Assembly: GCA_910574835.1 (NCBI GenBank)
Contig: CAJTDE010000015.1
Span: forward strand, 1 to 64,000
DNA length: 64,000 nucleotides
DNA from: Clostridia bacterium
GTDB taxonomy: Bacteria; Bacillota; Clostridia; Lachnospirales; Lachnospiraceae
Direction: 5' to 3'
Below are positions 14,611-58,491 of this stretch, in pieces. Position 1 is the stretch's first letter; every line of letters starts with the position of its first letter. The position numbers were made by a program, and so were the translations under genes. The notes beneath the pieces were generated by a model. It did no database searches. It worked only from the letters and a program-made list of their open reading frames with translations, and was not told where the DNA came from.

Positions 14611-14631
14611 CCTCTGCTCCGCAAAGTCGGA

Positions 14632-33411: not shown

Positions 33412-34086
33412 TTAAAAGGTTACTTCCCCATCATGAGAAATCAATGATACGGACCGCACCTTGGCAAGCCCGGACACCTCTTTTACAAAGGCGCTTTCTT
33501 CTTTTACCCGAACCTCCACAACCATATCCATATTGGACCCGGAAATATTTCTGGACTTTACCTTGTGGAAACGGCTGAACTTCTTCACAGTATCCAGAAC
33601 CGAAGCTTCTCCGTCCGCATCTGACAGGTTTACAACCAGCATCATAGGTGCTCTTGAGGAAGGAATATTTTCCAGAATCAAGACCAGCACGGTTACCACC
33701 AAGCAGGTCAAAAGCGCTACTTCAAAAAGCCCTGCGCCGCAGATGATGCCGATACTGATGGACCAGAACAGAAAAACCAGATCCATCGGGTCTTTAATCG
33801 CCGTCCGAAAACGTACAATGGAAAGAGCGCCGACCATACCGAGGGAAATTACCAGGTTTGACTGCATGGCCAGAATAATTGCTGCCGTAATTACGGACAG
33901 CGCCGCAAGCGACACGTTAAATCCCTTCGAATAAAATGATTTGCGTGTCATCAGGCGATATATTAAAAATACGTAACAAGCTAACATGCATGTGACTGCA
34001 AAGGTGGCCATAATCCGCCCGGCAGAAATGTCCATGCTTGTAAAGCCCTCCAGAAATGATTTTTTGAATACATCTTGAAATCCCAT
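33412..34086 (-). CDS. DUF4956 membrane protein
   Basis: The 224-residue protein has three to four membrane helices (from about residue 23 to 140), with the conserved ISLGMVGALSIVRFRTAIKDP segment between them. A cytosolic ferredoxin-like domain follows (from about residue 150). This is the DUF4956 pattern. Such genes are often found beside VTC and CotH genes, as here; a role in polyphosphate or surface polymer handling is guessed, not shown. AGGAGG precedes the ATG. Confidence 0.88.
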   Translation of the reverse strand: MGFQDVFKKSFLEGFTSMDISAGRIMATFAVTCMLACYVFLIYRLMTRKSFYSKGFNVSLAALSVITAAIILAMQSNLVISLGMVGALSIVRFRTAIKDPMDLVFLFWSISIGIICGAGLFEVALLTCLVVTVLVLILENIPSSRAPMMLVVNLSDADGEASVLDTVKKFSRFHKVKSRNISGSNMDMVVEVRVKEESAFVKEVSGLAKVRSVSLISHDGEVTF

Positions 34087-34142
34087 TGTTTGTCCCTCCT
34101 ATTGTTCTTTAAAAGAGCCTTCCCGCTCCCCTTTTCTTATCT

Positions 34143-34835
34143 TTAATTTTTACTGCTCAGCATATATCTTCTGCATAAATAATATTTAGAAAATGCCGTC
34201 TGCCGTAAATTTGTAAGCTGCAGATTTTGATAAATATAGTCCGGAAGAAATTCATCATACTTTACTTCCAGAATATGCTGTCCGGCCGGCATAATAGGCC
34301 GTCTTCGAATCCAAGGCTTCAAAAAGTCGTCAATCACATCAGAAGATGCAATATTTTGATCCAATGTAATACGAGTATTTCCTAAGCTGTCCACATAGGG
34401 GACGCGCTCATACTCCACAATTACTTTTGGCCTTAAAAGCCTGGTGCGCATAAGAAGATTCATTTTCTGAAGCACCGGATCATAGCTATTGTCCACCGGC
34501 AGCGGCCGGCCGGCCATCAGCTCCCTGCATTGTTCCTCACGAAGCAGGCATGATTTTTTCTGAGTCATCCCATGCTCTTTACGCTTTAGTTCAAGACTAA
34601 TCCGTCCGGCATCTCCATTATAGATACGTATACGAAACTTTTCTCTGGGGTCTGTCCCAATTTCATTTTCTAAATAGCAGCTATTGTAATAATCGTCAAA
34701 GTAGAGACTGCGAATCTGATATTTTTTTTCTTCTCCCACATGTGAATCAAGCGATATCAGTCCACGAATACGACTTTCTAAAACCGCAATCTGCGGCGCT
34801 GTCACTACGTACTTTAGTTCATGTCTGTACTCCAT
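34143..34835 (-). CDS. VTC-domain protein (polyphosphate polymerase-like)
   Basis: The 230-residue protein is a compact VTC domain of the triphosphate tunnel type. EYRHELKYVVT, SLYFDDYYNSCY, FRIRIYNGD, SLELKRKE, PKVIVEYER and ILEVKYDEFLPDY supply the alternating basic and acidic tunnel residues. Yeast Vtc4 makes polyphosphate with this fold; bacterial stand-alone members are less known. The ATG at 34835 has AGAGAGG upstream. It lies between CotH and DUF4956 genes. Confidence 0.9.
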   Translation of the reverse strand: MEYRHELKYVVTAPQIAVLESRIRGLISLDSHVGEEKKYQIRSLYFDDYYNSCYLENEIGTDPREKFRIRIYNGDAGRISLELKRKEHGMTQKKSCLLREEQCRELMAGRPLPVDNSYDPVLQKMNLLMRTRLLRPKVIVEYERVPYVDSLGNTRITLDQNIASSDVIDDFLKPWIRRRPIMPAGQHILEVKYDEFLPDYIYQNLQLTNLRQTAFSKYYLCRRYMLSSKN

Positions 34836-34888
34836 TCTTTGATTCCTCTCTGTCTCTCTCATAGCAGAATCCTGACTTATGTTTTATC

Positions 34889-36559
34889 CTACTCAAAACC
34901 AAGGCCCATATACGCCTCAAGATTTCCATCAAAATAATAATCCAAAATCTTCATCCGATAAAGAGCCATTCGCTTAAAAAGCTCATAATCCGCTCCAAAA
35001 TTGCTGTCCGGCCAACGCATCTTATCCCGCAAAAGCGCACCTGAATCCTGAACTTCATGGGTCAAATTATCCACTGCATCGGTCAAATTATCATCTGAGA
35101 GCAATCCCTCCCTCAATTGCTTCCATTTTATTTCAACCTGCTCTCTTGCATCTTCGACATCCAGTTCTATCAGACGATCACCAAAAGACCAGTTCACCCG
35201 CTCCGAATAAAGCCCTGTTCCCAGCTCCACGTCCCAAATAGCTTCTCCCGTGCCTTCCCTTAAGCAATCCCCCCAGGTCAGATCCATATCCCAGGGTGCA
35301 AAATAGATCCGGTATGATTTACCGTTACTTTTTGCCACATAATACATGTTTTTTCCCCGGTTGTCAATTCCAATCACCGCCTGAAGGTAAGTCCAAACGT
35401 TTAAGGCGCCATCCACATCTACAAAATCAGGCGCATTTTTAGAAAACTCTTCATCATTTTCCAAGTCCCTAAGCTTCAAGTAAGACAGTAAAGGCTCCCA
35501 AGCGGCCTTGTCGATCCTGCTATAGCTTCCCTTCAATTCATAACCTGCTAATTCCTCCCCAAATAAAGAGGTTTCAAGCAATTCTTCCGTAGGAAGCTCT
35601 TGCGGAATCACCGATTTGTAAGAGTATTCTACCTGAGCGCCATCGCCCTCCTTTGCCAAATCTAACTGCTTGGAATCTACCGGCTCCATAAGCCCATATA
35701 ATCCCCAATATTCCTGATTAAAGAAAACCTCCACATATACAAAATCCGTTCCAAACTTTGCATTTGGAAATTCCGGGATTTTCGCCCCGAACCCATTCCA
35801 CAAATCCGCCGAAAGCTTATCCCTGATTTTTGAGGCATCACTGTACATTGCATTCAAAATCCACTCATCATCTGTGCGCAGACCAAACAACGACTTTTTA
35901 TCGGAAACAACATTACCGCTTTTATCTTGGGTTTTCAATGTCAGCTTATACCCCTTCTTCGGATATGTGCGGCTTGTATTTCCCCGTATATGCGCTTCAA
36001 GTATATTCGCCCCGGTCCAGTCCCGCTTACTTTGAGAATCCCAGTAATAGACCATCCCTCCAAAAGCTCCTGTATCCGCCGTCTCTGTCGTCTCTATGGA
36101 AAGTATCGGAATGCCTGTTGCTACTAAATAACACTCCTGATATTCCTGACCTCGAATCGCATAGAAGCGAAATGCCGTCCCTTGACAAATCGCTTCCTGC
36201 TTAGACTCTTTTGTAAAATTATCCTCAAAAGCAAGCCGGATCTCCTTGGACATGGATGTAAGCTCTCCTGTCTCCCATGCCTCTACATTCATGTTCAGGG
36301 GAAGGTAAAAAGTTGATGTTGTCTTGTCAAAAGGAAGCTTTTCCCCTGAAAACGCCAATTCCGTGAAGAACGGCTCCTCTGCTCGTGTATACATTTTTTC
36401 TATAAGAGTCTTTTCCTCCTCATCCAAAACCTTATATTGAATAGGTCCCATAAATAATGGTTTTAAAAAGAAATATGACAGGCAGCCTACTAACAATATG
36501 CAGTTCAAAATAAGCGCTGTCTGTCTTTTCACTCCTTTTACCTCTCTAGCTCTTTCCAT
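34889..36559 (-). CDS. CotH kinase-family protein, membrane anchored
   Basis: The 556-residue protein has one N-terminal helix (about residues 14-35) and an outside-facing CotH domain: AHIRGNTSRTYPKKGYKLTLK, LNAMYSDASKIRDKLSADLW, VEVFFNQEYWGLYGLMEPVD and FAPWDMDLTWGD. These are the ATP and metal-binding motifs of CotH protein kinases. It may phosphorylate an exported protein or glycan-related target. The ATG has only CGGAA before it; a GTG at 36532 with GAGAGG is a good alternative start. Confidence 0.9.
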   Translation of the reverse strand: MERAREVKGVKRQTALILNCILLVGCLSYFFLKPLFMGPIQYKVLDEEEKTLIEKMYTRAEEPFFTELAFSGEKLPFDKTTSTFYLPLNMNVEAWETGELTSMSKEIRLAFEDNFTKESKQEAICQGTAFRFYAIRGQEYQECYLVATGIPILSIETTETADTGAFGGMVYYWDSQSKRDWTGANILEAHIRGNTSRTYPKKGYKLTLKTQDKSGNVVSDKKSLFGLRTDDEWILNAMYSDASKIRDKLSADLWNGFGAKIPEFPNAKFGTDFVYVEVFFNQEYWGLYGLMEPVDSKQLDLAKEGDGAQVEYSYKSVIPQELPTEELLETSLFGEELAGYELKGSYSRIDKAAWEPLLSYLKLRDLENDEEFSKNAPDFVDVDGALNVWTYLQAVIGIDNRGKNMYYVAKSNGKSYRIYFAPWDMDLTWGDCLREGTGEAIWDVELGTGLYSERVNWSFGDRLIELDVEDAREQVEIKWKQLREGLLSDDNLTDAVDNLTHEVQDSGALLRDKMRWPDSNFGADYELFKRMALYRMKILDYYFDGNLEAYMGLGFE

Positions 36560-36570: not shown

Positions 36571-36972
36571 TTAGGGCTTCTTTTCAATAAACATTTTGCG
36601 GGTAATAAAATTGTAAACCATCACAACTGCCGTGGCAAAAATCTTTACGACCATATAAGCGCGGTTCATATATTGTCCCAGCCATGCAATACCGGCCCGC
36701 ATAATGATTTGGTTAATACCCAGACCGATCAGGCTTAAGATGACAAATACCACAAATTGCTTTGTCTTATCTGCTCCCTTATCTGTGTCAAATACAACGG
36801 TAATGCTTAAGATATAATTCACAGTTACCGATACCGCAAAGGAACAGCCGCTCGCCACAAGCTCTCCAAAGCCTGCCAGCTCTACTAAAGCTACCATAAT
36901 GCCATAGTCGATGAAAAAGCATAAGAAGCCTACGGCGCCGAATTTGATGATTTGACTGAATAATTTTTTCAT
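36571..36972 (-). CDS. GtrA-family membrane protein
   Basis: The 133-residue protein has four helices and the typical FGAVGFLCFFIDYGIMVALVE start, VTVNYILSITVVFD in the middle and VYNFITRKMFI at the end. GtrA proteins are proposed to flip undecaprenyl-linked monosaccharides to the outside. Position next to tiny DMT-type transporters and a DPM-like GT2 fits lipid-linked sugar handling. CGGAG precedes the ATG. Confidence 0.9.
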   Translation of the reverse strand: MKKLFSQIIKFGAVGFLCFFIDYGIMVALVELAGFGELVASGCSFAVSVTVNYILSITVVFDTDKGADKTKQFVVFVILSLIGLGINQIIMRAGIAWLGQYMNRAYMVVKIFATAVVMVYNFITRKMFIEKKP

Positions 36973-37004: not shown

Positions 37005-37343
37005 TCAACTGTAAAACACAAAAATCCCCAAAAATATAAAAATATTTCCAATAACCTTTTTCTTTGTTAGCTGTTCTCTAAAAAATGTACGACTCAGTAT
37101 CATTACAAAAACGAAACCAAGAGACTCAATAATGGGTCCGTTTTTATAATCCAGTCCCTTATAAGCCACTACCGTAAGAAGTGTAGAGAGCACCATCAAA
37201 ACATATCCGCTGATTACCCATATATTTAAATATTCCCAAACCATGCTGCTGTAATGATTTTGTGCCGCTTTTTTTAGCAGAAGCTGAGAAAATGCAGCAA
37301 TTACCACTGACATAAGCATATATATATAAAATTCATTCATCAT
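37005..37343 (-). CDS. small 4-TM DMT/EamA-type transporter subunit
   Basis: The protein of about 112 residues has four helices, ending YKGLDYKNGPIIESLGFVFVMI and FREQLTKKKVIGNIFIFLGIF. This is the small-multidrug-resistance-like half-size DMT pattern, as in ArnE/ArnF lipid-sugar flippases. It overlaps the next half-size gene by 11 bp, so a heterodimer is likely. The start is uncertain by one or two codons (GTG 37346, ATG 37343, ATG 37340). Confidence 0.82.
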   Translation of the reverse strand: MMNEFYIYMLMSVVIAAFSQLLLKKAAQNHYSSMVWEYLNIWVISGYVLMVLSTLLTVVAYKGLDYKNGPIIESLGFVFVMILSRTFFREQLTKKKVIGNIFIFLGIFVFYS

Positions 37344-37683
37344 CACTGTTAATGATCATCGTACCTGCCAGTACGATGGCAACTCCTATCATATTTTTTA
37401 TAGTTATAATCTCACCAAAAAAGATAACTGCCCAAATCATGGACCAGAGAATTGCCATAGAACGGTTAGCATAAGCAATCGATAAATCAATTCTTTTAAT
37501 TAGCTGCTGCCAAATAAGTGCATAGATTCCTAAAATTATAATTTCCACGCCGTAATAAAACAAAAATCCCGGCGTCATTGCATCATACAATGCTGCCTGT
37601 TTTGCCGCTACTCCGGAAAGTGTATAAATAATTACTGCAAGTTGTAAAAATGCTATTTTTTTTAAATCAAGTATACCTTTCAT
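37333..37683 (-). CDS. small 4-TM DMT/EamA-type transporter subunit
   Basis: The 116-residue protein has four helices: LQLAVIIYTLSGVAAKQA, FYYGVEIIILGIYALIWQQLI, SIAYANRSMAILWSMIWAVIFF and MIGVAIVLAGTMIIN. The pattern W-Q-Q-L-I followed by A-Y-A-N-R/K-S recurs in the similar protein at 42077-42484. It overlaps the opine-dehydrogenase-like gene by 17 bp and its partner by 11 bp. A paired flippase for a lipid-linked sugar or a small exporter is the likely role. Confidence 0.82.
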   Translation of the reverse strand: MKGILDLKKIAFLQLAVIIYTLSGVAAKQAALYDAMTPGFLFYYGVEIIILGIYALIWQQLIKRIDLSIAYANRSMAILWSMIWAVIFFGEIITIKNMIGVAIVLAGTMIINSDDE

Positions 37684-38755
37684 GGCAATTTTTTTCGCTC
37701 CTTATATCTTCTATTAAAGCTTCAAGGGCTTCTTTCGTTATATGTCGTCCCATTCTCCGAAAGTCTGTCTTTATTACTGCACAGGCCAAATTAATAATCA
37801 ATGTTGTATAAGGTGTAGCTTCTCCTAAAAACTTTCCCAAAGACTCCAAAGGCACAAGTCCGCAGGGCACATCCTCCAGCAAATATCGATGATGAATTGT
37901 AGCCGGTGCATCTATTTCTTTATAATAATCGTTATTCCGAATACATTCATATAAAGTATTACCCTCAATCTGATAAGTCCGCCGCATCCAATCCGCCGTA
38001 CTTTCAACAAATACCCCCAGCTCCTCCGCCAGCATCTGCCTTTCCTTATCAACTTCTTCTATATAATCTGCGATTGTTTTGGAGATTCCTTCATAATAAT
38101 ATTTGAAATCTACGGTTTCATTTTCAATCCATCCAATATTCATCAATACAGGTGCGCAGTGCAGGATCATTCCTACATTTCCCAGAGATGTTACCGCCAT
38201 ATTATCTGCTTCTTTAAAATAAGGACGCATGCATTCCGGAATTCTCTCCATAATTTCGCCCATATCCGACTTTTTCATGGCAGCAATTAAAACATCCTTT
38301 TTAAAGGCATATATCCTGCAAGAATTTTTTGAATCTCGCCTGCAGGTATAGACAATAGTCTGAGTCTCGGCTATTTTGGGTCTATATTTACAACCTGCAT
38401 CCCGCAGATGCTTCATAAAATCAATTGCACCAAAAGTTCTGCCTGGGTTTAATATAATTACTGTGTCTTCATCCACATAAGAGGCCAGCATCTTTGCAAT
38501 ATCCCGATAAGCATTTGCCGGAACTGTCACAAAAATAGTTTTCTCATAAACCTCCCCTATTTTTGTTGACACGTGTTCCAATACAGCCGTTCCCTCCAGT
38601 ACTCCTCCGCAGTAGATTTGCTTTTTCTTTATAATTTCCGCAATATTTGCTTCGCTTCTGTTCCACAGGTTTACATACTCACCGGACAAGCTTAGATGAG
38701 CTGCCATTGCAAGCCCCTGATGTCCGCCCCCTATGATTAAATATTGTTTTTTCAT
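37667..38755 (-). CDS. opine/octopine dehydrogenase-family oxidoreductase
   Basis: The 362-residue protein starts with a Rossmann fold (YLIIGGGHQGLAMAAHLSLSG) and carries the C-terminal opine dehydrogenase helical domain. NVGMILHCAPVLMNIG around residue 190 matches the H-x-x-P-V-L-x-N motif that holds the catalytic histidine. Such enzymes reductively join an amino acid's amine to a 2-keto acid with NAD(P)H. Its ATG overlaps the B12 gene's TGA by 4 bp. In a glycan locus this is unusual; the product may be a substituent precursor. Confidence 0.85.
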   Translation of the reverse strand: MKKQYLIIGGGHQGLAMAAHLSLSGEYVNLWNRSEANIAEIIKKKQIYCGGVLEGTAVLEHVSTKIGEVYEKTIFVTVPANAYRDIAKMLASYVDEDTVIILNPGRTFGAIDFMKHLRDAGCKYRPKIAETQTIVYTCRRDSKNSCRIYAFKKDVLIAAMKKSDMGEIMERIPECMRPYFKEADNMAVTSLGNVGMILHCAPVLMNIGWIENETVDFKYYYEGISKTIADYIEEVDKERQMLAEELGVFVESTADWMRRTYQIEGNTLYECIRNNDYYKEIDAPATIHHRYLLEDVPCGLVPLESLGKFLGEATPYTTLIINLACAVIKTDFRRMGRHITKEALEALIEDIRSEKNCHERYT

Positions 38756-40383
38756 GTCGTCTTTACCAGCTGTTCCAACCGCATCTGTTCTGACAAAACT
38801 TCTCCTGTTTCCTTATTATAAGCAACGCACTTGCCGTTGAAAAACTTTGTATTTAAATTGCCTCTAAATTTTTCGTTTTTTACAATATGCACCGCATCCA
38901 TAAAACCTTTTTTTACACATTCACTCAGCACCTCCGGTGACATCAAAGGATCTTCGCAATCCGAAAAATAATCCCGTATAAAATTCAACAAAAATTTTGC
39001 TTCGGAAATAAGCTCTTCTTTTCTGTCCTTGATTTTTTTATCCTGCTGCATGGAAAACTCTTCTCCCATTGTATGGCGGATTACTCCTTTTACAATCTTA
39101 CAGCTTTCAATCACATCCTCCGCAGATGCCGCATGATCTGCTTCGCAAAAGCCTACCACATGAATAATATGAGGTTTTACCGCCATCTGCATAAATGTGG
39201 ACGCCGCAAGCTGACCTTTTGCCACATACGGATCTGCCGAAAATAACGGGAGTCCCGCACGTGTCTCTCTATAAGTTCGGAAGCCTTCATCCTCTAAGCT
39301 TTCCACCATCTCAATCATTGCCAATATTTTAGCAAAATCCATTGAGAAAGAAAGTCCATTTGGATTATTAAACATATACTGTGCAACATAATCCTTCACA
39401 CCTAACTTTTTGGCATTATAAGCGCTCAAATATGCTGCCACAACCGGAATAACATCATGTGCATCTCTAAGCCCCCAATGATGAGGCTCGTTGATCTCCA
39501 CCGGTATTCCTTGTTCCGCATGCCATTTAATCAGCTTCTGTGCCTCAGCAATGGACACTTCTATTGGCCTGGTGCCCCGCCCATCCAATTCACTGTACCA
39601 GTAGATGGGAATTGCCGTCCAAGCATTATCGATTGTCTTTAATAATATCTTCGCATATTGAAAAACATCCTCTGTTCCGCTATAGCATCTCATTAACGGA
39701 TAATTCCCTCTCTGAGAAGCCTGCTTTAAACGAATAAAATCTTCCTCACCGCGAATTGGAACTCCCCCGGCTCCATCAAACCGCTCCTCCATTTTATCCG
39801 GTTGAAACAAAAACTGCTGGGCATTTTGATCCGGTCCCAGTGAAATCACATCTAATACCTTTGCATCTGCAATTTTCTCAATCCCTTTTATGGTTTCTTC
39901 CAAATCCGGCAAACCAAAATGATGCCGCAATATGGGATAGGGATAGCTATTTTTAATCCTTTGATTTAATGTTTTCTCATAAGCCGCCGCAGTAGTGCCA
40001 AGCTGATCGCCCCGAAGAAATCGAATAGAATCATTGATATCATCAAATCCATCGGAAATAAAAGAAAACCTGTTATATTCTTTTGCTATATCGGCTACCG
40101 GTTTTGTTCCTCCAAAGATCCAGATTGGGGAATAGTCCAAAGCCTTTGCTTTAAGAAAAATTTCATCAAACAGCGGACGCACATTTTGGGGTGTTAATCG
40201 ATAACTAATCCCTACCATATCCGGTTTATATACCTGTATTTTTTCAAAAAGTTTTTCTGTAGTTACCGCTGGCCCTAAAAAAAGCGTATCATACCCTTCC
40301 TGCTCTGCCAAACTCAAAAAATGAACAACACCCGCTACATGAACACAATTTCCTATAGACGCGCCTAAAATTTTCTTTTTCAA
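38752..40383 (-). CDS. B12-binding, mutase-like enzyme
   Basis: The 543-residue protein starts with a cobalamin-binding Rossmann domain: ILGASIGNCVHVAGVVHFL resembles the D-x-H-x-x-G motif with Cys in place of Asp, and WIFGGTKP gives the GG. From about residue 140 a barrel follows that resembles glutamate mutase E subunits (IPVEINEPHHWGLRDAHD, GVKDYVAQYMFNNPNG, RETRAGLPLFSADPY). No radical-SAM cysteine motif is seen. I choose the TTG at 40383 since AGGAG lies eight bases upstream and the domain then begins MKKKILG. The substrate is unknown. Confidence 0.75.
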   Translation of the reverse strand: MKKKILGASIGNCVHVAGVVHFLSLAEQEGYDTLFLGPAVTTEKLFEKIQVYKPDMVGISYRLTPQNVRPLFDEIFLKAKALDYSPIWIFGGTKPVADIAKEYNRFSFISDGFDDINDSIRFLRGDQLGTTAAAYEKTLNQRIKNSYPYPILRHHFGLPDLEETIKGIEKIADAKVLDVISLGPDQNAQQFLFQPDKMEERFDGAGGVPIRGEEDFIRLKQASQRGNYPLMRCYSGTEDVFQYAKILLKTIDNAWTAIPIYWYSELDGRGTRPIEVSIAEAQKLIKWHAEQGIPVEINEPHHWGLRDAHDVIPVVAAYLSAYNAKKLGVKDYVAQYMFNNPNGLSFSMDFAKILAMIEMVESLEDEGFRTYRETRAGLPLFSADPYVAKGQLAASTFMQMAVKPHIIHVVGFCEADHAASAEDVIESCKIVKGVIRHTMGEEFSMQQDKKIKDRKEELISEAKFLLNFIRDYFSDCEDPLMSPEVLSECVKKGFMDAVHIVKNEKFRGNLNTKFFNGKCVAYNKETGEVLSEQMRLEQLVKTT

Positions 40384-40399
40384 AATATTCACTCCTGTC

Positions 40400-41686
40400 T
40401 CAAAAAACATCATATTGCCTCTCTAAGCTTTCGGGCCTTTGAGGATAACGCAGCTCTGTAATATTCTCACCTCTCACATTCGTTACCTGAATGCTTCGGG
40501 CAATCTCATCCAGAACTTCTTTATAGCTCTTCTTATCATTTTCCTTTTGGTAATAAAAAATTCTTATTACCTCTTTTCCTGCTTTTGAAACATGGGATAA
40601 TTCACTTCCATTTTCGTGGTAAAAAATTACTTTAACAGCATTCTCCATCTTATCCAAGAGTTCTGAAGCCGTAACATTATAATAGATTTTTCCGGCTTCT
40701 TTCACATAAACCTTTATATCATAAAAAAAACCTTTCCCGATTGGTTCAAATTCCTGCAAGTTTTCATAATCAACAGAATTGCCAGTCTGGTAATCAATTA
40801 GCATATTTGCAATGTTAGGTCCGCCCATAAGAATTGGATACAGATACGGGCTGCCGCCTGCCAAACGATATAAATACTCCCCTATCTTCAATCCTTTTTC
40901 TCCTATATAACACTGAACCGTAACAGGCCCCTCCTGTATTCCAAAGGAATCTGTCAATTCCTGCGTCAATTCCTGCAATTTCTGAAAATGCTTCTTCGTA
41001 TATTTAGAAGGGAATCGCACGCTTGACAACACGATCTCCTCACCAAAATTTCTATTCACATCATAAATGCATGTAACATATGCTTTTCCTGCTTTCACCC
41101 AAGCCGTAATTGAAATCTCGTCCACCGGATAAAACTCTTCTATTAATACTTTTCCATCATAGTTCAGAGATTCTCTGATTGTTTTCTCATAATTATCCCT
41201 TACCTCTTCTACACTTTTGCAGACAAAAATGCCTTTGCTTCCATAAGCGTCTATTGGCTTCATAATCACTGGAAAATCAAAACGTTCCAGTTCTTTATCA
41301 TCAAATCCGGCTTCCAAAACAGCATAAGGAATAATCGGGAAATTATGTGCCTGAAAATGTTCTTTCATTTGAACTTTATCCGTAAGCTTCTTTATAATCT
41401 CAGGAGTATAAAAAGTAGGCAGTTCTAAGCCTCTGGCAATTTCATATCCCGGCTGCAGATTGCGATCCGAAAATGCCGAAATAACCCCGCAAACCTCATG
41501 TTGCTTTGCAATCCTTCTTAATACGGGTATATCCATTGTACTGACATCATAAGCATATTCTACCATGCGTTTTGCCGGTGCATTTTCATAATAGTCACAT
41601 ACGACAGGCTCGAATCCCTTTTGCCTTATCTCCTTTATCAAATCACAGAATGGCTCAATCGCCCCTAACACCAATACTTTGTCCAT
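40400..41686 (-). CDS. ATP-grasp enzyme
   Basis: The 428-residue protein has a preATP-grasp start (KVLVLGAIEPFCDLIKEI), the nucleotide-binding FPVIMKPIDAYGSKGIF, VLIEEFYPVDEISITAW, and GEYLYRLAGGSPYL as the E-x-x-x-R-x-x-G-G metal site. An extra C-terminal domain follows from about residue 310. ATP-grasp enzymes link a carboxylate to an amine or other nucleophile via acyl phosphate. Its stop lies 17 bp before the B12 gene start. A ligase attaching an amino acid to an amino sugar would fit the locus, by inference. Confidence 0.87.
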   Translation of the reverse strand: MDKVLVLGAIEPFCDLIKEIRQKGFEPVVCDYYENAPAKRMVEYAYDVSTMDIPVLRRIAKQHEVCGVISAFSDRNLQPGYEIARGLELPTFYTPEIIKKLTDKVQMKEHFQAHNFPIIPYAVLEAGFDDKELERFDFPVIMKPIDAYGSKGIFVCKSVEEVRDNYEKTIRESLNYDGKVLIEEFYPVDEISITAWVKAGKAYVTCIYDVNRNFGEEIVLSSVRFPSKYTKKHFQKLQELTQELTDSFGIQEGPVTVQCYIGEKGLKIGEYLYRLAGGSPYLYPILMGGPNIANMLIDYQTGNSVDYENLQEFEPIGKGFFYDIKVYVKEAGKIYYNVTASELLDKMENAVKVIFYHENGSELSHVSKAGKEVIRIFYYQKENDKKSYKEVLDEIARSIQVTNVRGENITELRYPQRPESLERQYDVF

Positions 41687-41730
41687 AACTTTCCCCTTTA
41701 TTTAATTCTGCGGTCCCAAAACTCCCTGCC

Positions 41731-42084
41731 CTACAGAGAATAAAGTATAATTCCCGCAATAATAATTAAATTTCCGAATAATACATTCTTTTCTATCTTT
41801 TCTTTTAATATCAGCTTGGAAAGAACCATTAGAAATATGTAGGAAGTCACTCCTAATACAGATCCATATTTGTATGGGATTCCTTTATAGGCAAAGGAAT
41901 TTAAAAAAAGAACCGCCACAAAGATTCCATACGCTGTAATAACCCGAATATTTAAGTACTCATTCAATTGATTTTTATGCTTCACCAAAGTGCTTTTTTT
42001 TAATAAAATTTGTGAGAATGCTGAGAAAAATTGATTAACCAGCATCAATAATACGCATAATTGTGTAAACCCAATTTTACTCAT
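41731..42084 (-). CDS. small 4-TM DMT/EamA-type transporter subunit
   Basis: The 117-residue protein is closely similar in layout to the one at 37005-37343: MLVNQFFSAFSQILLKKS, EYLNIRVITAYGIFVAVLFLN, YKGIPYKYGSVLGVTSYIFLM and LKEKIEKNVLFGNLIIIAGIILYSL. It overlaps the next half-size gene by 8 bp. It belongs to the first of two such pairs flanking the ATP-grasp/B12/opine block. Confidence 0.82.
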   Translation of the reverse strand: MSKIGFTQLCVLLMLVNQFFSAFSQILLKKSTLVKHKNQLNEYLNIRVITAYGIFVAVLFLNSFAYKGIPYKYGSVLGVTSYIFLMVLSKLILKEKIEKNVLFGNLIIIAGIILYSL

Positions 42085-42484
42085 GCTTATTCACCACCAA
42101 AATTCCAATAAATATAACAACAATTCCAATAATATTAAATAAACTCAGTTTTTCGTGAAATAATGCAATTGCTGCCAACTGCGTCCAGAAAATATAAGAG
42201 CTTTTGTTTGCATACATAACTGATATATTCACATTTTTAATAAGCTTCTGCCATATTACCGCATAAAGCATTAAAATACTCATCATAAAAATGTAAATAG
42301 CTATCAGTTTTTTATTCAGCAGACAATCAACGATAAGTTCCCAAATACCTTCGCTGCCTGTCGGCAGCTCTTTGGATGCCAGCTTTGAACTGACTGATAC
42401 CAAACTATATAAAACCACGATTGGCTGCAGCTTCAAAGTAACACGCAGAGCATTTTTATATTTTGCCTTTGCTATTTCTTTCAT
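42077..42484 (-). CDS. small 4-TM DMT/EamA-type transporter subunit
   Basis: The 135-residue protein has four helices, with YAVIWQKLIKNVNISVMYANKSS matching the WQQLI...AYANRS pattern of 37333-37683. A longer loop after helix one distinguishes it. The ATG at 42484 sits one base after the stop of the upstream GT2, and GAAGAG precedes it. It probably pairs with the adjacent gene as a heterodimer. Confidence 0.8.
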   Translation of the reverse strand: MKEIAKAKYKNALRVTLKLQPIVVLYSLVSVSSKLASKELPTGSEGIWELIVDCLLNKKLIAIYIFMMSILMLYAVIWQKLIKNVNISVMYANKSSYIFWTQLAAIALFHEKLSLFNIIGIVVIFIGILVVNKHE

Positions 42485-42485
42485 T

Positions 42486-43427
42486 TCACTCTTCATCTTC
42501 CATTTCACATTGTCTTATTGCATAATTCGGTATCTTCTTCGCTTCCTTCAAAATTCGAATCAAATAATCACCGATAATTCCTATGGCTAATAAAATCAAT
42601 CCTGAGTAAGACAGAATCAAGAGCACCAGTGTAATCCACCCCTGAATAGATATACCATATAGCAAATATCTGTAAAGATAATAAATTCCCAAGAGAATGC
42701 TTATAATAAAACTAGCAATCCCAATATCTCTGACTACTATAAGCGGAAATGAGGAGTTGGTCAATATATTTGCAAAAAAATCTTTCACCAAACGTTTAAA
42801 TGTATATCCGCTTTTTCCATATTTTCTGCTGTCATGCTCAACAACAACATTACAGATACGATTGGAAACCATTAATAATAAATGACCGATCCTGGGGAAA
42901 TCTACATGCATCTCCAGCATAGCCTCTACTACAAACCGTTTCATAATTCGAAAACTGGTCAGCTGAAGTTTTGGATCCTTTTTAAAGATCGCCGAAGAAA
43001 CCCTATTGGCCAGATATGTCCCAAAATTCCGAATAGGGCCATGTTTCTTACTCTCATATCTTCCTATTACTACATCAATCTCCGGATCTCCGTTTAACAC
43101 TTGAATTAATTTGGGGATTTCCTCCGGAGGATGCTGCAGATCATCATCCATCGTAATAATATAATCCCCTTTTGCATATTTGAATCCACACAACAGCGCA
43201 CAATGCTGTCCGTAATTACGTGACAACTGTACAATTTTTACTCTCTTATCCTGCTGACGAAGCTGTTGCATTTTCGAAAAAGAGCCATCCCTGGAGGAAT
43301 CGTCCACCAGTACCAATTCAAAATCCAAAGAGAGCTTCTCATCAAACACTTTGCACAGCCTCTGATGCAATTCCACCAACGTTGCCTGTGAATTGTATAC
43401 AGGTACCACTACTGAATATAAGCTCAT
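42486..43427 (-). CDS. polyprenyl-phosphate GT2 (ArnC/GtrB-like)
   Basis: The 313-residue protein has a GT-A domain (YSVVVPVYNSQATLVEL, LVDDSSRDGS, LSRNYGQHCALLCGFKYAKGD, TMDDDLQHPPEEI) and two C-terminal membrane helices (from about residue 225). This is the layout of enzymes that put a sugar on undecaprenyl phosphate, such as ArnC, GtrB and YfdH. It would supply a lipid-linked sugar for the GtrA/DMT flippases and GT-C enzymes. The ATG at 43427 follows GAGGGAAATGTT. Confidence 0.92.
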   Translation of the reverse strand: MSLYSVVVPVYNSQATLVELHQRLCKVFDEKLSLDFELVLVDDSSRDGSFSKMQQLRQQDKRVKIVQLSRNYGQHCALLCGFKYAKGDYIITMDDDLQHPPEEIPKLIQVLNGDPEIDVVIGRYESKKHGPIRNFGTYLANRVSSAIFKKDPKLQLTSFRIMKRFVVEAMLEMHVDFPRIGHLLLMVSNRICNVVVEHDSRKYGKSGYTFKRLVKDFFANILTNSSFPLIVVRDIGIASFIISILLGIYYLYRYLLYGISIQGWITLVLLILSYSGLILLAIGIIGDYLIRILKEAKKIPNYAIRQCEMEDEE

Positions 43428-43443
43428 AACATTTCCCTCTTTT

Positions 43444-44571
43444 CTATGCATAAAATTCTTTGATGCAATCTGTAATATATGTTATTTGCTCTTTTTTCAA
43501 ACCAAAATACATAGGCAATCTTAATAAGCGCTCGCTTTCTCTTGTGGTAAAACAATCCTCGCCATGAAAACTGCCGTACCGCTTTCCCGCAGGTGCGGAA
43601 TGAAGCGGAATATAATGAAACACGGTAAGAATTTCTTTCTTTTTCAGATATTGGATCAACTCTGTTCTTTCCTGTATATTTTGCGCTTTTATATAAAACA
43701 TATGTCCGTTATGAGCACAATGCTCCGGAATAAACGGAAGCTCTATTTTCCCTGATTTTCCCAGCTTCTCCAACTCTTCGTAGTACTGATTCCAATTTCG
43801 GATTCTTTCATCATTAATCTTTTCGGCAATCCGAAGCTGTGCCCATAAATAAGCCGCATTCAATTCGCTGGGGAGATAAGAAGAACCTGCTTCCACCCAT
43901 GTGTACTTATCTATTTCTCCTCTGAAAAACTTACTTCTATCTGTCCCCTTTTCCCGAATGATTTCTGCCAATTCATTATCTTTTTTGTCTTTTATAAGAA
44001 TGGCACCGCCCTCGCCCATGCTGTAATTTTTCGTCTCATGAAAACTATAACAGCCGAAATCTCCGATTGCTCCCAACATTCTTCCTTTATAGGCAGACAT
44101 AATTCCCTGCGCCGCATCTTCAACAACCTTCAAATGATACGCCTGTGCAATTTCACAGATCTCATCCATTTCACAGCCGACACCTGCATAATGAACAGGT
44201 ACAATCACACGGGTATTCCTGGTAATTGCCTTTTCAATTAATTTTTCATTGATATTCATAGTATCCGGTCTGATATCAACAAATACAATCCTTGCTCCTC
44301 TTACAACAAAAGCATCTGCTGTAGATACGAAAGTGTAGGAAGGCATAATTACCTCGTCTCCCGGCCCGACATCTGACAAAATAGCTGCCATCTCCAATGC
44401 ATGTGTACAGGAAGTTGTCAATAATGCCTTTTGCGCTCCGGCTGTTTTTTCAATCCATCCATTACATAATTTTGTAAAATCACCATCACCGCATATTTTT
44501 CTCTTTTTTACCGCTTCTTCTATATAGGTAATTTCATCACCTGTATAGGGTGGTACATTAAATTTAATCAT
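43444..44571 (-). CDS. wecE: dTDP-4-keto-6-deoxysugar aminotransferase (WecE/RffA type)
   Basis: The 375-residue PLP enzyme follows WecE/RffA closely: FNVPPYTGDEITYIEEAV, KICGDGDFTKLCNGWIE, LTTSCTHALEMAA, GDEVIMPSYTFVSTADAFV and SFHETKNYSMGEGGA, the last with the PLP lysine. It would convert dTDP-4-keto-6-deoxy-glucose, the RfbB product, to the 4-amino sugar. GAGG precedes the ATG. It provides an amine that the ATP-grasp enzyme downstream could acylate. Confidence 0.9.
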   Translation of the reverse strand: MIKFNVPPYTGDEITYIEEAVKKRKICGDGDFTKLCNGWIEKTAGAQKALLTTSCTHALEMAAILSDVGPGDEVIMPSYTFVSTADAFVVRGARIVFVDIRPDTMNINEKLIEKAITRNTRVIVPVHYAGVGCEMDEICEIAQAYHLKVVEDAAQGIMSAYKGRMLGAIGDFGCYSFHETKNYSMGEGGAILIKDKKDNELAEIIREKGTDRSKFFRGEIDKYTWVEAGSSYLPSELNAAYLWAQLRIAEKINDERIRNWNQYYEELEKLGKSGKIELPFIPEHCAHNGHMFYIKAQNIQERTELIQYLKKKEILTVFHYIPLHSAPAGKRYGSFHGEDCFTTRESERLLRLPMYFGLKKEQITYITDCIKEFYA

Positions 44572-44712: not shown

Positions 44713-46446
44713 TTATTCATCAATTTCTTGTACAAACTTTGTTACCTTTATATTTCCAATACTATCGACTATATCATATACAACATTATCATACCTATCA
44801 TTTAAATAATGACCTAAAATTGCAATCTTTTCATCATCCATAGCAAGATAATATACATTATCACGAAACCAATCTTGTGAATGTAATTCTGTCAAACCAT
44901 TTTTTTCAAGGTAGCTATAATACATATCAGAAAACATTGAGGTTCCGCCCCAGAAAAAACAATTATATGCCGTATTCTCTGTTGTTCTGTAAAAAATCGG
45001 CTCTCCTCCTGTCAGATCATCTCCGTAGATATAAATATTTTGCTTTTGGGCATTCACATATTGCTTCATATCTATTAATCTGTTTCGCTCTTGCTGCTGT
45101 TCATCCTGAACCGCCGGAATAAACAGCCCCTTCGCCATGCTTAAACAAAGAACTGCAATAACAATTCCGCTGACTGCCTGCCCTCCCCTTTTAACGATTT
45201 TATTTAAATTCTTCCATTTTGCGCTCGGCCAGTTTTGAATATTTATTACCGCCAGTATGAGATCCACCGGCATAAAAATCGTCATAAATACTCTCAAAGG
45301 AAGCCTCCCCCGCAAGCATAAATACAATATCATAACTACGCACCCGGCCAATACTCCCAGAATTACAAGATTGAAAATCCACCGATTATTCAAAATGCTC
45401 TTTTGGACCTCACTATACACCAAGCACAAAATCAATGTCAACACTAAAATACATTTTACCACAGTCGTTTCGGATAACTCTGACCAAATGCTTTTAACTT
45501 GTTCAGAAATATTAATATGCTCTTCCTCCACTTTATCAAAATGTGACAATATCTTCTCCAGATTTTCCGTGTTATACCTTTCGTCCATAAAATACCAGCA
45601 AGATACCATCACACATAATTTTTCGTCCCATCCTGCCTCTTTATATATCTGGGAGTTATCCCAATAGTTTCTATCGCCATAATCCATATACTGAACTCTC
45701 AAAGCACTGTATTCCTGAAATTCCTCAGATCCCTCATTTTGACTACGATAGTTTTCATCCATTCTTCCTAGTGCCAGTACCGATACAGGCAATAATAAAA
45801 ATATTAACAAATAAATACCTGACTCTTTTGACCATTTCTTTTTCATTAAAATAAGTATAAAATCTCCAACAATTAGCACCAGCAAAAAAGCCAAAATCAC
45901 ATATCCCACCATAGTTCTCTGAAAAAAGCCCAAAAGAACCAAAAGCCAAGTGAGCCAAAAACCGCTTTTCTTTTCCATACAGAGATAATTTACAATAGCT
46001 GCAGTCCCAATCACGCCGGCCGTAGTTGTAAACTGTACTTGCTGAATTGGTATGGAAAACAATATAATCTGCATGACTGACAATATGAAAACTGCAGAAA
46101 TTAAACCAATCCCTTTTTTATAACACTCTTTTATAACTGCTTTCCATATAATAATCAAGGACAATGCCACAATCAATACCGAATATAAATCATACCAAGG
46201 CACATTCCGTATATATTTATACAAAAGGCTTAAAGGTATTCCAAGCAAAAAATGTATATACATAAAGCTTTTCTCTCCAAGCCCTGATTGTTCTGATGAA
46301 TAAATAATAGAGTTTATAATTGTATTATCATCATTTGTAGCAAAGCGCACTGTCGAAAACTTATAAATGAGTATATAGATTAAGAGCACACCCAAGCCTG
46401 CTAATATCCAACGTCCAATTTCTTTTTCATAAAGAAACCGTTTCAC
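44713..46446 (-). CDS. polytopic GT-C-like membrane protein
   Basis: The 577-residue protein has about 12 helices and a C-terminal outside domain of about 130 residues. After the first helix it has RFATNDDNTIINSI, an acidic pair where GT-C glycosyltransferases keep their catalytic aspartate. It is a paralogue of the next gene. The GTG at 46446 follows GAGGAG with seven bases; earlier in-frame starts lie in the upstream gene and lack one. It likely uses a lipid-linked sugar to decorate the polymer outside the cell. Confidence 0.75.
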   Translation of the reverse strand: MKRFLYEKEIGRWILAGLGVLLIYILIYKFSTVRFATNDDNTIINSIIYSSEQSGLGEKSFMYIHFLLGIPLSLLYKYIRNVPWYDLYSVLIVALSLIIIWKAVIKECYKKGIGLISAVFILSVMQIILFSIPIQQVQFTTTAGVIGTAAIVNYLCMEKKSGFWLTWLLVLLGFFQRTMVGYVILAFLLVLIVGDFILILMKKKWSKESGIYLLIFLLLPVSVLALGRMDENYRSQNEGSEEFQEYSALRVQYMDYGDRNYWDNSQIYKEAGWDEKLCVMVSCWYFMDERYNTENLEKILSHFDKVEEEHINISEQVKSIWSELSETTVVKCILVLTLILCLVYSEVQKSILNNRWIFNLVILGVLAGCVVMILYLCLRGRLPLRVFMTIFMPVDLILAVINIQNWPSAKWKNLNKIVKRGGQAVSGIVIAVLCLSMAKGLFIPAVQDEQQQERNRLIDMKQYVNAQKQNIYIYGDDLTGGEPIFYRTTENTAYNCFFWGGTSMFSDMYYSYLEKNGLTELHSQDWFRDNVYYLAMDDEKIAILGHYLNDRYDNVVYDIVDSIGNIKVTKFVQEIDE

Positions 46447-46450
46447 TCTG

Positions 46451-48205: not shown

Positions 48206-48208
48206 CAC

Positions 48209-49150
48209 TTATTCCTCCTGCCGCCTCTCATACCGCTCCCGCACCTCAAGAAGCCGCATCTCGAAATCCTGCTTATTCTTCTGCTCCATACTCTGCAAAA
48301 CCAACCCTGCAAAAAAAGACTGCAAGGCCGCAATCAGCACAAAGCCGCATACAATCAAGGTAGGAAACTTCGGCACCAGACCTGTCCCTACATATTCCAC
48401 AATCACCGGAATCAAAAATCCAATGCCTAAAAGCGCCAGTACAAGCGACAGCATGGAAAAAAAGTTAAAAGGCTTATAATTTTTATACAAGGTCAATATC
48501 CGGGTCAAAACCTTAAAGCCGTCGGAATAGGTATTTAGCTTGGATATGCTGCCCTCCGGCCGATCACGGTATTCAATGATCACATTGTCCACCTGCATAT
48601 GCTTGTCCGCCGCATGAATACTCATCTCTGTTTCAATCTCAAATCCCCGTGAAAGCACCGGGAAGGTCTTGACAAAAGAATAGCTGAAAGCCCGGTATCC
48701 CGTCATAATATCCTGAATATTCGTATCAAAAAAACGGTTAATGCAGTTTTTCACAAAGGAATTGCCGAAATTGTGAAAGGGACGCTTGTTCTCCGTATAA
48801 TAGGTAGAGGAAAGGCGATCTCCCACCACCATATCCGCCTGCTCTTCCAGAACTCTGCGGACCATCTCCGAAGCCGCTTCGGCAGGATAAGTGTCATCTC
48901 CGTCTACGATTACATAAACATGGGCATCTATCTCCCGAAACATCCGGCGAATCACATTGCCCTTTCCCTGAAGGCGCTCTCGCCGCACCACAGCGCCGGC
49001 TTCTAAGGCCATCTCCGCCGTGCCGTCCGTAGAATTATTGTCATAGACATAGATGACCGCCTCCGGAAGCTCCCGGTGAAAGTCCTCCACAACCTTCTTT
49101 ACTGTTTTACTCTCATTATAACATGGAACCAGTACGGCTATTTTATCCAC
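48209..49150 (-). CDS. polyprenyl-phosphate GT2 with C-terminal membrane helices
   Basis: The 313-residue protein has a GT-A domain (IAVLVPCYNESKTVKKVV, VYDNNSTDGTAEM, GKGNVIRRMF, VIVDGDDTYPAE) and two helices from about residue 235. It is DPM1-like and probably makes a lipid-linked sugar for the two GT-C-like proteins downstream. The start is GTG with GGAGGAGGG before it. It overlaps the gene upstream by 13 bp. Confidence 0.9.
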   Translation of the reverse strand: MDKIAVLVPCYNESKTVKKVVEDFHRELPEAVIYVYDNNSTDGTAEMALEAGAVVRRERLQGKGNVIRRMFREIDAHVYVIVDGDDTYPAEAASEMVRRVLEEQADMVVGDRLSSTYYTENKRPFHNFGNSFVKNCINRFFDTNIQDIMTGYRAFSYSFVKTFPVLSRGFEIETEMSIHAADKHMQVDNVIIEYRDRPEGSISKLNTYSDGFKVLTRILTLYKNYKPFNFFSMLSLVLALLGIGFLIPVIVEYVGTGLVPKFPTLIVCGFVLIAALQSFFAGLVLQSMEQKNKQDFEMRLLEVRERYERRQEE

Positions 49151-56237: not shown

Positions 56238-57107
56238 TTATAGGCCGTTGGCTACGTCGGTCAGGTATTGGCCGTAGGCGGTTTTCATTAGGGGGGCGGC
56301 CAGCTTCAGGAGCTGGTCTTTGTTTATGAAGCCGCGTTTGTAGGCTATCTCCTCGATGCAGGAGATGTAGAGGCCCTGGCGCTTCTGGAAGGCGGCTACG
56401 AAATCAGCGGCGTCTAAAAGGGCGTCGTGGTTGCCGGTGTCCAGCCAGGCGAAGCCGCGGCCCAGGGTTTCTACATGGAGGGTACCCCGGCGGAGGTATT
56501 CGTTGTTGACGCTGGTGATCTCGATCTCGCCGCGGGTGGAGGGTTTTACGTTTTTGGCTATTTCTACGACATCGTTGTCATAGAAGTAGAGGCCCGGTAC
56601 GGCGTAGTTGGACTTGGGATTTACGGGCTTTTCCTCGATGGAGAGGGCTTTGCCGTCTTTGTCAAAGGCTACGACGCCGTATTCTCTGGGGTCTTTTACA
56701 TAGTAGCCGAAGATGGTGGCGCCCTCGGTGCGGGAGGCGGCATTTTTCAGAACTTGGGAAAAGCTTTGTCCGTAGAAGATATTATCTCCTAAAACTAAGG
56801 CTACCTGATCGGTTCCGATGAATTTTTCTCCTATGATAAATGCGTCGGCCAGTCCTCTTGGATATTCCTGTATGGCGTAGTGCATCTCCATGCCGAGCTG
56901 AGAGCCGTCGCCTAACAGCTCTTCAAATACGGGAAGATCCCGGGGGGTGGAAATAATAAGCACCTCGCGGATGCCGGCCAGCATCAGGGTGGACAGCGGG
57001 TAGTAGATCATGGGCTTGTCGTAGACGGGCATGAGCTGCTTGGATATTGCTTTTGTGAGAGGATAGAGCCTTGTTCCGGCTCCGCCTGCCAGGATAATTC
57101 CTTTCAT
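56238..57107 (-). CDS. rfbA: glucose-1-phosphate thymidylyltransferase
   Basis: The 289-residue enzyme makes dTDP-glucose. [49 protein letters not shown] and [14 protein letters not shown] are family hallmarks. GGAGG lies ten bases before the ATG and belongs to the recurring GGAACTGGAATGGAGG element. It lies between rfbB and rfbC. Confidence 0.96.
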
Positions 57108-57326: not shown

Positions 57327-58409
57327 TTATTTTACCTGATACATTTCTTCATAGTATTTCTGATAGCCGCCGCTTGTAACGTTTTTCATCCAATCCTCGT
57401 GTTCGAAGAACCATTGGATGGTGAGGCGGATGCCTTCTTTGAACATGGTCTCCGGATACCAGCCTATTTCTTCCTTTATCTTATCCGGTGCTATGGCATA
57501 GCGGCGATCATGGCCCTTGCGGTCTTCTACGTAAGTGATCAGGTCTTTGCTGACGAGGGCTTTTCTCGGATCATCCTCTGCCAGCATATCCTGAAGGGTT
57601 TCCAGGATAATATTAACAATCTCTATGTTTTGCTTTTCATTGTGTCCGCCGATGTTGTAGCGTTCTCCCAGGCGGCCCTTTTCCTGTACCATATCAATTG
57701 CTTTGGCATGATCGTCTACATAGAGCCAATCGCGGACGTTCTTGCCGTCGCCGTATACTGGAAGCTTTTTTCCCTGTAAAGCATTGTTGATAATTAGGGG
57801 AATCAGCTTTTCGGGGAACTGATACGGGCCGTAGTTGTTGCTGCAGCTTGTAATGTTGACGGGAAACTTGTAGGTATCCCAGTACGCCTTAGTCAGCATA
57901 TCCCCGGATGCCTTGCTGGCTGAGTAGGGGCTGTGAGGTGCAAACGGCGTTGTCTCATAGAAATAGGTATCCCCTTCTTCCAGTGATCCATACACTTCAT
58001 CCGTAGATACATACAGGAAACGCTTGTCCTCTTTGTAAGTCCCGTCGGGCAGCTCCCAGGCTTTCTTGGCTGCATTCAGCATCACCAGGGTACCGAGTAC
58101 ATTGGTCTCTACAAAGATCTCCGGGTTGCGGATGCTGCGGTCTACATGGCTTTCCGCCGCAAAATGCACTACTCTGTCGATATCATTTTCTTCAAATATC
58201 TTTTCAATTGCTTCTCTGTCGCGGATATCTGCCCGAACAAAGGTGTAGTTGTCCTGATTTTCCACATCCTTTAGGTTCTCCAAATTGCCTGCATAGGTGA
58301 GAGCATCTACATTGATAATGCGGATACTGTCGCCGTACTTGCGAAACATGTAATGAATATAGTTAGAGCCGATGAAGCCGGCTCCGCCGGTAACGAGATA
58401 GGTTCTCAT
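57327..58409 (-). CDS. rfbB: dTDP-glucose 4,6-dehydratase
   Basis: The 360-residue short-chain dehydrogenase has TYLVTGGAGFIGSNYIHY (NAD site), FAAESHVDRSI, VSTDEVYG, and YSASKASGDML with the catalytic Tyr and Lys. It makes dTDP-4-keto-6-deoxyglucose, used both for rhamnose and by the WecE-type aminotransferase. The ATG at 58409 follows GGAGG by 11 bases. It is the first gene of the long leftward locus. Confidence 0.96.
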   Translation of the reverse strand: MRTYLVTGGAGFIGSNYIHYMFRKYGDSIRIINVDALTYAGNLENLKDVENQDNYTFVRADIRDREAIEKIFEENDIDRVVHFAAESHVDRSIRNPEIFVETNVLGTLVMLNAAKKAWELPDGTYKEDKRFLYVSTDEVYGSLEEGDTYFYETTPFAPHSPYSASKASGDMLTKAYWDTYKFPVNITSCSNNYGPYQFPEKLIPLIINNALQGKKLPVYGDGKNVRDWLYVDDHAKAIDMVQEKGRLGERYNIGGHNEKQNIEIVNIILETLQDMLAEDDPRKALVSKDLITYVEDRKGHDRRYAIAPDKIKEEIGWYPETMFKEGIRLTIQWFFEHEDWMKNVTSGGYQKYYEEMYQVK

Positions 58410-58491
58410 TTGATAATTTTCCTCCAAAATATTTACTTTTTAGTATAGCTTAGACAGTAAAATATCCTCAGTCTTACTCATAGATATGGGT

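Follow-up and report, generated by a model that had tools for sequence, protein, structure and literature searches.

A block of seven genes on contig CAJTDE010000015.1 of a Clostridia bacterium of the Lachnospiraceae (assembly GCA_910574835.1) combines a cobalamin (B12)-binding protein, an opine dehydrogenase (ODH) and an ATP-grasp ligase within a polysaccharide locus, which raises the question of what this set of enzymes might make there. The 64,000-nucleotide stretch of the contig that was analysed is called the window in the following, and positions refer to its forward strand; loci and genomes used for comparison carry L and G numbers. The initial annotation had placed the block at 37005..42508 and described it as a pair of small transporters, the three enzymes and a second transporter pair, and all seven frames are indeed found at these coordinates on the minus strand. 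They overlap by 4–17 bases at five of the six junctions, with a gap of 44 bases at the remaining one between the second small transporter and the ATP-grasp gene.

The B12 protein and the opine dehydrogenase

The core of the block consists of two adjoining genes. The B12 protein (38752..40413, minus strand) comprises an N-terminal cobalamin domain (B12-binding, 38.0 bits, cut-off 32.1) followed by a glutamate mutase epsilon-related region and is referred to as the mutase below, while the ODH is encoded at 37667..38755 on the same strand (Octopine_DH, 152.5 bits, cut-off 30). A scan of 84,980 species yielded 530 relatives of the mutase, and all locus counts given here refer to the best 80 of these 530 unless another set is named. 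ODH accompanies the mutase in 79 of these best 80 loci from other genomes, the exception being L134, where the contig ends 119 bases past the mutase match. Since the association is this regular, the block is not a chance arrangement. A further set, the first 20 loci, some of which repeat genomes of the 80-locus set, contains ODH in 17 cases. We also surveyed 398 genomes of the phylum with a mutase query at an E-value of 1e-8 or better and an ODH query at 1e-25. The mutase family was found in 87 genomes, 84 of which also possess ODH, and in 79 the two lie within 1.5 kb of each other; both are present and non-adjacent in G121, G370, G406, G416 and G449. The three mutase genomes without an ODH match are G177, whose mutase is adjoined by a divergent ODH, G263, which gave a fragment match, and G317. 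The ODH query matched in 106 of the 398 genomes, and the 95 stronger matches entered the co-occurrence comparison, in which 11 genomes have ODH without the mutase; hence, ODH seems to be needed by the mutase more than the mutase is by ODH. Mutase and ODH are one conserved unit.

Regarding its class, the B12 protein had been annotated as mutase-like, which is borne out by three lines of evidence. Searches among solved structures matched the N-terminal cobalamin domain, the best matches including methyltransferase corrinoid proteins, and returned nothing convincing for the rest of the protein. The profile hidden Markov model of glutamate mutase epsilon (PF06368), applied to 119 genomes of which 25 carry the mutase by hand count, matched the mutase in eight, five of them above the cut-off of 26.6 bits. 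Alignment of 45 relatives to 20 GlmE sequences with hhalign, run without secondary structure, extended over 371 columns with an E-value of 1.4e-4, compared with 15–37 columns at 0.053–0.2 for three unrelated control profiles. The methylmalonyl-CoA mutase control gave 71 columns at 0.057, and this enzyme was thus rejected as a relative of the barrel. Finally, two divergent relatives carry MutL fused to the mutase in single chains of 1214 or 1233 residues (L190, 1739–5383; L191, 4306–8007), with MutL scores of 273 and 276 bits (cut-off 27) and an adjoining ODH in each case; the L190 fusion also matches the GlmL accessory model, below cut-off. From the PF06368 matches, the hhalign alignment and the MutL fusions we conclude that, as judged by sequence, the B12 protein is a predicted single-chain adenosylcobalamin mutase of the glutamate mutase class. 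Both of its parts lie in one open frame, unlike the separate S and E chains of glutamate mutase.

Residues were mapped through the hhalign-based alignment, with GlmE numbering taken from the solved chain and conservation counted over 45 sequences. E171 of GlmE aligns with D277, and E330, which we take to be a ribose contact of adenosylcobalamin, aligns with E424; each is kept in 45/45. Several observations weigh against the assignment to glutamate mutase. The positions of R66, R100 and R149, presumably the arginine claw that binds glutamate, are occupied by H165, Q199 and Y244, identical in all 45 sequences. The hhalign probability was just 53%, the window B12 protein itself does not reach PF06368, and no match to this model was found in the window's own genome. 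A weak match in G106 lies inside a methylmalonyl-CoA mutase gene, so that weak PF06368 matches alone are not proof. In an alternative reading, the B12 protein would have given up the rearrangement of carbon skeletons for a different B12-dependent activity, for instance that of a methyltransferase or of an aminomutase. Such a role would suit the loss of the three substrate arginines from their places, the methyltransferase corrinoid proteins among the solved structures that match the N-terminal domain best and the cobalamin motif DxHxxG, whose first position is Cys in 41 of the 45 sequences, Asp in three and a gap in one. The His and Gly of this motif are nevertheless kept in 45/45, E424 corresponds to E330 of GlmE, and the epsilon similarity over 371 columns together with the MutL fusions argues for a mutase; we thus regard this alternative as rather improbable.

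If the claw is absent in place, what could the mutase bind? Two residues before the first and third claw positions, arginines (R163 and R242) are present in 45/45, and the patterns R-x-H-x-G and R-x-Y-S-x-T hold also in the divergent L055, L190 and L191. Since the claw arginines are displaced, glutamate itself is an unlikely substrate. Provided that the alignment holds, the arginines would be set deeper in the barrel by one layer, an arrangement that a longer substrate would fit. As the mutase hardly occurs without ODH and its pocket is possibly deeper, it may act on the opine itself, with its likely carboxylate-binding arginines placed two residues earlier on the strands than in glutamate mutase. 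We know of no case in which an opine serves as the substrate of a B12 mutase.

The closest solved relative of the ODH is N-(1-D-carboxyethyl)-L-norvaline dehydrogenase (1bg6, E-value 2.1e-58), in which we take H202 and D297 to be the catalytic residues. They correspond to H199 and D295 in the window, which are kept in 10/10 sequences (the window, L055 and eight loci of the clade described below) and in 70 of 71 other ODHs, the remaining one being gapped, and the initial annotation as an opine dehydrogenase stands. The acid formed by the pair might be an N-(1-carboxyethyl)-type derivative of a glutamate or 3-methylaspartate skeleton, a specific structure that we put forward with little confidence. 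Conversely, the pair could work in the direction of breakdown, with ODH splitting an opine and the mutase feeding the resulting amino acid into fermentation. The fusion and ODH of L191, which adjoin an ABC transporter of the oligopeptide type and a C26 peptidase, are perhaps such a catabolic version. However, neither MutL nor a known fermentation enzyme is among the window neighbours covered by the family scans, and the cyclic di-AMP (c-di-AMP) riboswitch that precedes many pairs, together with the polysaccharide setting of the window, fits synthesis better. Breakdown is therefore a distinctly improbable function of the window pair.

The mutase was matched once in the window's own genome and in none of 15 genomes of the same genus, which makes a recent arrival of the locus in this lineage probable; a search of plasmids for the mutase gave no match. 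Two loci have a mutase split over two frames (L188, 5007–6818; L189, 8466–10369), where sequencing error and decay are indistinguishable. An apparent gene fused to the mutase in L052 was rejected, as its extra letters resemble another frame of GC-rich DNA. Downstream of ODHs that lack a mutase, a protein of about 455 residues is encoded in L192 (7351–8718), L194 (7624–8991) and L195 (5655–6995); the L192 protein has no family match and is hydrophobic, with the look of a transporter by eye.

The ATP-grasp ligase and the glycan branch

The ATP-grasp ligase (40400..41686, minus strand; ATP-grasp_4, PF13535, 38.2 bits, cut-off 27) distinguishes a subset of the pairs. In a quick tree of 95 mutases, the window and nine others (L057–L063, L066 and L133) form one clade with an SH-aLRT support of 99, its sources being Lachnospiraceae, Selenomonas, Christensenellaceae, Adlercreutzia and further genomes from Bacillota. 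A profile of the window-type ATP-grasp, which was seeded with the clade loci and hence finds those by construction, exceeds 470 bits in eight of the nine other clade loci. No match above 60 bits occurs in the 71 loci outside the clade; eight of these 71, which are loci with D-Ala-D-Ala-ligase-like genes, gave matches of 35–51 bits. The initial annotation had supposed that ATP-grasp, mutase and ODH travel together, which proved true of mutase and ODH and not of the ATP-grasp. The latter is found in 8 of the best 80 outside loci, and among the 398 genomes the window ATP-grasp matches coincide with the mutase in 6 of 30, compared with 87/398 overall, which is chance level; the ATP-grasp family is broad. 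The trio as a universal unit was thus rejected; as far as the ATP-grasp goes, the three enzymes mostly occur apart.

Within the clade, sugar genes are frequent neighbours. DegT-family aminotransferases are present in six of the eight ATP-grasp loci, as well as in the window and in L055. Their best NCBIfam models describe aminotransferases for the 4-position of sugars, namely DesI (dTDP-4-dehydro-6-deoxyglucose aminotransferase) in L057, L061, L062, L063 and L066 and a LegC-type model in L133, below cut-off in each case, and genes of sugar dehydratase/epimerase families occur in L055, L057 and L133. Directly after ODH, L133 encodes a bacterial sugar (-phosphate) transferase fused to an ATP-grasp whose C-terminal domain is of the L-amino-acid-ligase type (12750–14612), followed downstream by a glycosyltransferase and an FnlA-like gene (below cut-off). 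The closest whole locus, L060, shares with the window 63% identity in the family 2 glycosyltransferase (GT2), 52% in the ATP-grasp, 67% in the mutase and 50% in ODH. A row of dTDP-glucose-4,6-dehydratase-like gene (below cut-off), glycosyltransferase, DegT, ATP-grasp, ODH and mutase is found in L055, whose mutase is very divergent, and L189 combines a different ATP-grasp, ODH and its split mutase with glycosyltransferases; from these two arrangements, the link to glycans may have arisen more than once. L187, with the same divergent mutase type as L055, has the pair flanked by DNA-repair genes and no ATP-grasp. The suggested glycan-locus setting thus applies to one clade with the ATP-grasp and mostly with a sugar aminotransferase and glycosyltransferases, whereas the commoner setting is a free-standing operon, often led by a riboswitch.

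For the window, we favour with some reserve the reading that the block is a sugar-decoration module, in which the acid made by mutase and ODH is joined by the ATP-grasp to a 4-amino sugar. Together, mutase and ODH would yield an unusual amino acid, either N-substituted (opine-type) or branched. The ATP-grasp, as proposed here from its sequence and neighbours, would activate the carboxyl group of this acid and form an amide with the 4-amino group of a 4-amino-4,6-dideoxyhexose, here 4-amino-4,6-dideoxygalactose (Fuc4N). This acceptor would be supplied by RmlA, RmlB and WecE. GT2 may load the sugar onto the lipid carrier undecaprenyl phosphate, and the GtrA-type protein or the small SMR-type proteins described below may flip the lipid-linked sugar outward, with export to follow. 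The reactions themselves, their order, the acceptor and the lipid-linked stage are inferred here, as are the direction of recruitment and the osmolyte role discussed below.

Some loci of the clade do not fit this scheme well, and they count against the proposed decoration. In L058, the pair has no such ATP-grasp in the 12 kb covered, and a scan of three upstream proteins found no sugar genes. No DegT aminotransferase was seen in L059 or in L060, although the latter is the closest locus, and the ATP-grasp genes of L057 lie more than 4 kb from the mutase. Except for that of L060, the ATP-grasps of the clade share just 23–29% identity with the window enzyme, so the acceptors may differ.

The genes around the block are consistent with the supply of such a sugar. 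As had been annotated, a WecE-type aminotransferase and a GT2 lie immediately upstream. WecE (dTDP-4-amino-4,6-dideoxygalactose transaminase; 43444..44571, minus strand) reaches full model score (TIGR02379, 623.9 bits, cut-off 434.85; NF008687, 622.5 bits, cut-off 375), and GT2 (42486..43451, minus strand; Glycos_transf_2, 108.7 bits) has C-terminal hydrophobic stretches and matches the PgfS and ArnC models below cut-off. RmlA, a glucose-1-phosphate thymidylyltransferase (56238..57107, minus strand; TIGR01207, 494.4 bits, cut-off 360.65), and RmlB, the dTDP-glucose 4,6-dehydratase that makes the substrate of WecE (57327..58427, minus strand; TIGR01181, 483.4 bits, cut-off 365.1), are encoded further away. 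Since RmlA, RmlB and WecE are all encoded, the locus can make dTDP-4-keto-6-deoxyglucose and from it, via WecE, dTDP-Fuc4N. Family scans of the wider locus also found RmlC, an LCP transferase and a WcaJ-type initiating transferase, and an ABC exporter is indicated by Wzm/Wzt- and TagH-type matches below cut-off.

From upstream on the minus strand, the gene order is WecE, GT2, SMR1, SMR2, ATP-grasp, mutase, ODH, SMR3, SMR4, GtrA, CotH, VTC and DUF4956, and adjacent frames of this run either overlap by 4 to 23 bases or are spaced by 11 to 56 bases. The GtrA-type membrane protein lies at 36571..36972 (minus strand; PF04138, 77.6 bits). The CotH, VTC and DUF4956 genes downstream of the block occupy 33412–36559, and VTC and DUF4956 likewise follow the trio in L060 (15463–16868). 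Three large proteins (44713–46554, 46451–48208 and 49138–50904) have the look of membrane glycosyltransferases by eye; Pfam returned nothing for the first two at 0.001 and DUF6020 for the third.

The four small EamA/SMR-type membrane proteins, all on the minus strand, are the ArnE-like SMR1 (42077..42508; EamA, 23.1 bits), SMR2 (41731..42084; 31.6 bits, four hydrophobic peaks), SMR3 (37333..37683; 29.9 bits) and SMR4 (37005..37346; 37.6 bits), three of which exceed the EamA cut-off of 28.2 bits, SMR1 being the exception. The two pairs are paralogous in the same order, with 30% identity between SMR1 and SMR3 and 37% between SMR2 and SMR4. None of them meets the equivalog cut-offs of the NCBIfam ArnE/ArnF models (best 35.2 bits versus 92), and tblastn, a weak test for small membrane proteins, found no relative in the nine other clade loci. 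The initial annotation had counted the transporter pairs as part of the module and had proposed to score the trio for co-occurrence with such pairs and with the aminotransferase; an aminotransferase is present in six of the eight ATP-grasp loci, whereas the transporter pairs were rejected as module members and are local to the window's genome.

Free-standing operons and the c-di-AMP riboswitch

What, then, does the pair do elsewhere? Most mutase–ODH pairs lie outside glycan loci, and a leader several hundred bases long heads many operons in which ODH precedes the mutase. In nine of 11 such ODH-first loci, Rfam identified a c-di-AMP riboswitch (RF00379-type). A model built from these nine, which match by construction as its seeds, found 40 matches in 100 sources, and by coordinates each of them is at the 5′ end of an operon that holds the pair. 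The order ODH–mutase is present in 41 of the best 80 loci, and a riboswitch is predicted in 29 of these 41. In 28 of the 29, it lies 13 to 258 bases before the ODH frame, and in L081 a ligase gene stands in between. At the model threshold, no riboswitch was detected in the other 12 ODH-first loci or in 38 mutase-first loci, and none was found in the window. Rfam applied to ten mutase-first loci returned no riboswitch at the pair and a T-box about 4 kb from the mutase as its sole match, so that the idea of a riboswitch that would name the substrate is not supported. Where the two genes are unlinked, the riboswitch is directly upstream of ODH in all three mutase-bearing genomes examined (G370, G406 and G449), whereas it was not found at two unlinked mutases (L038 and L054) or at four ODHs from genomes without the mutase (L192–L195). 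In L042, two tandem c-di-AMP riboswitches (10549–10938) precede the ODH–mutase operon.

According to the introduction of PMC9960051, more than half of the genes behind such riboswitches in Bacillales and Clostridia seem to be transporters for ions, osmoprotectants or amino acids. Given a riboswitch on many pairs and a regulon rich in transporters, an osmolyte is the natural guess for the product. This suggests that the c-di-AMP-controlled pair makes an undescribed osmolyte, and the free-standing operon of the pair probably serves this purpose. The window pair would then have been recruited to the glycan locus from such a free-standing operon, which in many relatives lies behind the riboswitch. 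In the combined picture, the B12 mutase and ODH would serve many anaerobic Bacillota, under the control of c-di-AMP, for the synthesis of an undescribed osmolyte, and one clade would have taken this route over to cap a 4-amino sugar on its surface glycan, using either that acid or one related to it. We hold this picture tentatively and with somewhat less than even confidence.

Some of the free-standing operons contain further enzymes that activate carboxyl groups. In the Thermoanaerobacter-type loci L105, L107, L117 and L124 (and not in L114), an asparagine-synthase-type amidotransferase follows the mutase at 53–82 bases in riboswitch-bearing operons. A divergent D-Ala-D-Ala-ligase-like ATP-grasp, below cut-off, stands directly before ODH in L067 (6686–7687), L081 (7844–8857), L085 (6427–7422) and L098 (7874–8875), of which L081 is the only one with a riboswitch. 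The product of the pair hence repeatedly meets carboxyl-activating enzymes of different types, which fits an alternative for the window as well: the ATP-grasp could join the acid to an amino acid or another amine, yielding a soluble dipeptide-like compound or osmolyte, and the polysaccharide locus would be a coincidence. Against such a soluble product speak the sugar-aminotransferase, dehydratase, glycosyltransferase and flippase genes among the clade neighbours, as well as the fusion of one ATP-grasp to a sugar-phosphate transferase in L133, and we consider it unlikely. For the window, decoration of a sugar thus stays the favoured function.

Related pathways and implications

The proposed route resembles several known systems in part. 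The Arn route for aminoarabinose uses the aminotransferase ArnB, the lipid-sugar GT2 ArnC and the small flippase-like pair ArnE/ArnF. The window is alike in having an aminotransferase, a lipid-sugar GT2 and a small flippase-like pair in a row; it differs in that its aminotransferase is of the WecE type and that the ArnE/ArnF and ArnC models remain far below cut-off. The synthesis of pyrrolysine by PylB, PylC and PylD unites a mutase, an ATP-grasp ligase and an NAD dehydrogenase in one small pathway, and the ATP-grasp relatives of L063 and L133 match a PylC-like N-terminal model below cut-off. Similar as this trio of enzyme types is, PylB, which lacks B12, belongs to the radical-SAM enzymes, PylD falls outside the opine dehydrogenases, and the setting here is a polysaccharide locus. 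With glutamate mutase (GlmS/GlmE with MutL), the B12 protein shares the B12 domain, the epsilon-type region, acids at the positions of E171 and E330 and, in two relatives, the fusion to MutL; it departs from it by its single chain, its changed claw positions and the ODH that is almost always alongside. Likewise, the ODH belongs by sequence and by its conserved His and Asp to the family of N-(1-carboxyethyl)-L-norvaline and other opine dehydrogenases, which it leaves by being paired with a B12 mutase and, in many genomes, led by a riboswitch.

The title of a reference in PMC10609480 names an alanopine derivative of 4-amino-4,6-dideoxyglucose in the polysaccharide of Providencia alcalifaciens O35. 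As far as this title tells, an opine is joined there to a 4-amino-4,6-dideoxyhexose, so that the linkage proposed as the final step has a precedent. To our knowledge, no B12 mutase is known in that system. A search of the open-licence literature returned nothing on the mutase–ODH pair or on the gene set of the block.

If the decoration reading is true, a B12-dependent step would have been added to the synthesis of surface glycans, and from the glycan locus one would expect Fuc4N to bear an acid in amide linkage. If the reading of the free-standing operons is true, the pair, which is adjacent in 79 of the 398 genomes, would be a likely source of a solute under the control of c-di-AMP, for which the operon predicts a metabolite that rises with salt or at low c-di-AMP. 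The mutase itself would then represent a new branch of glutamate-mutase-like enzymes with an altered substrate pocket.

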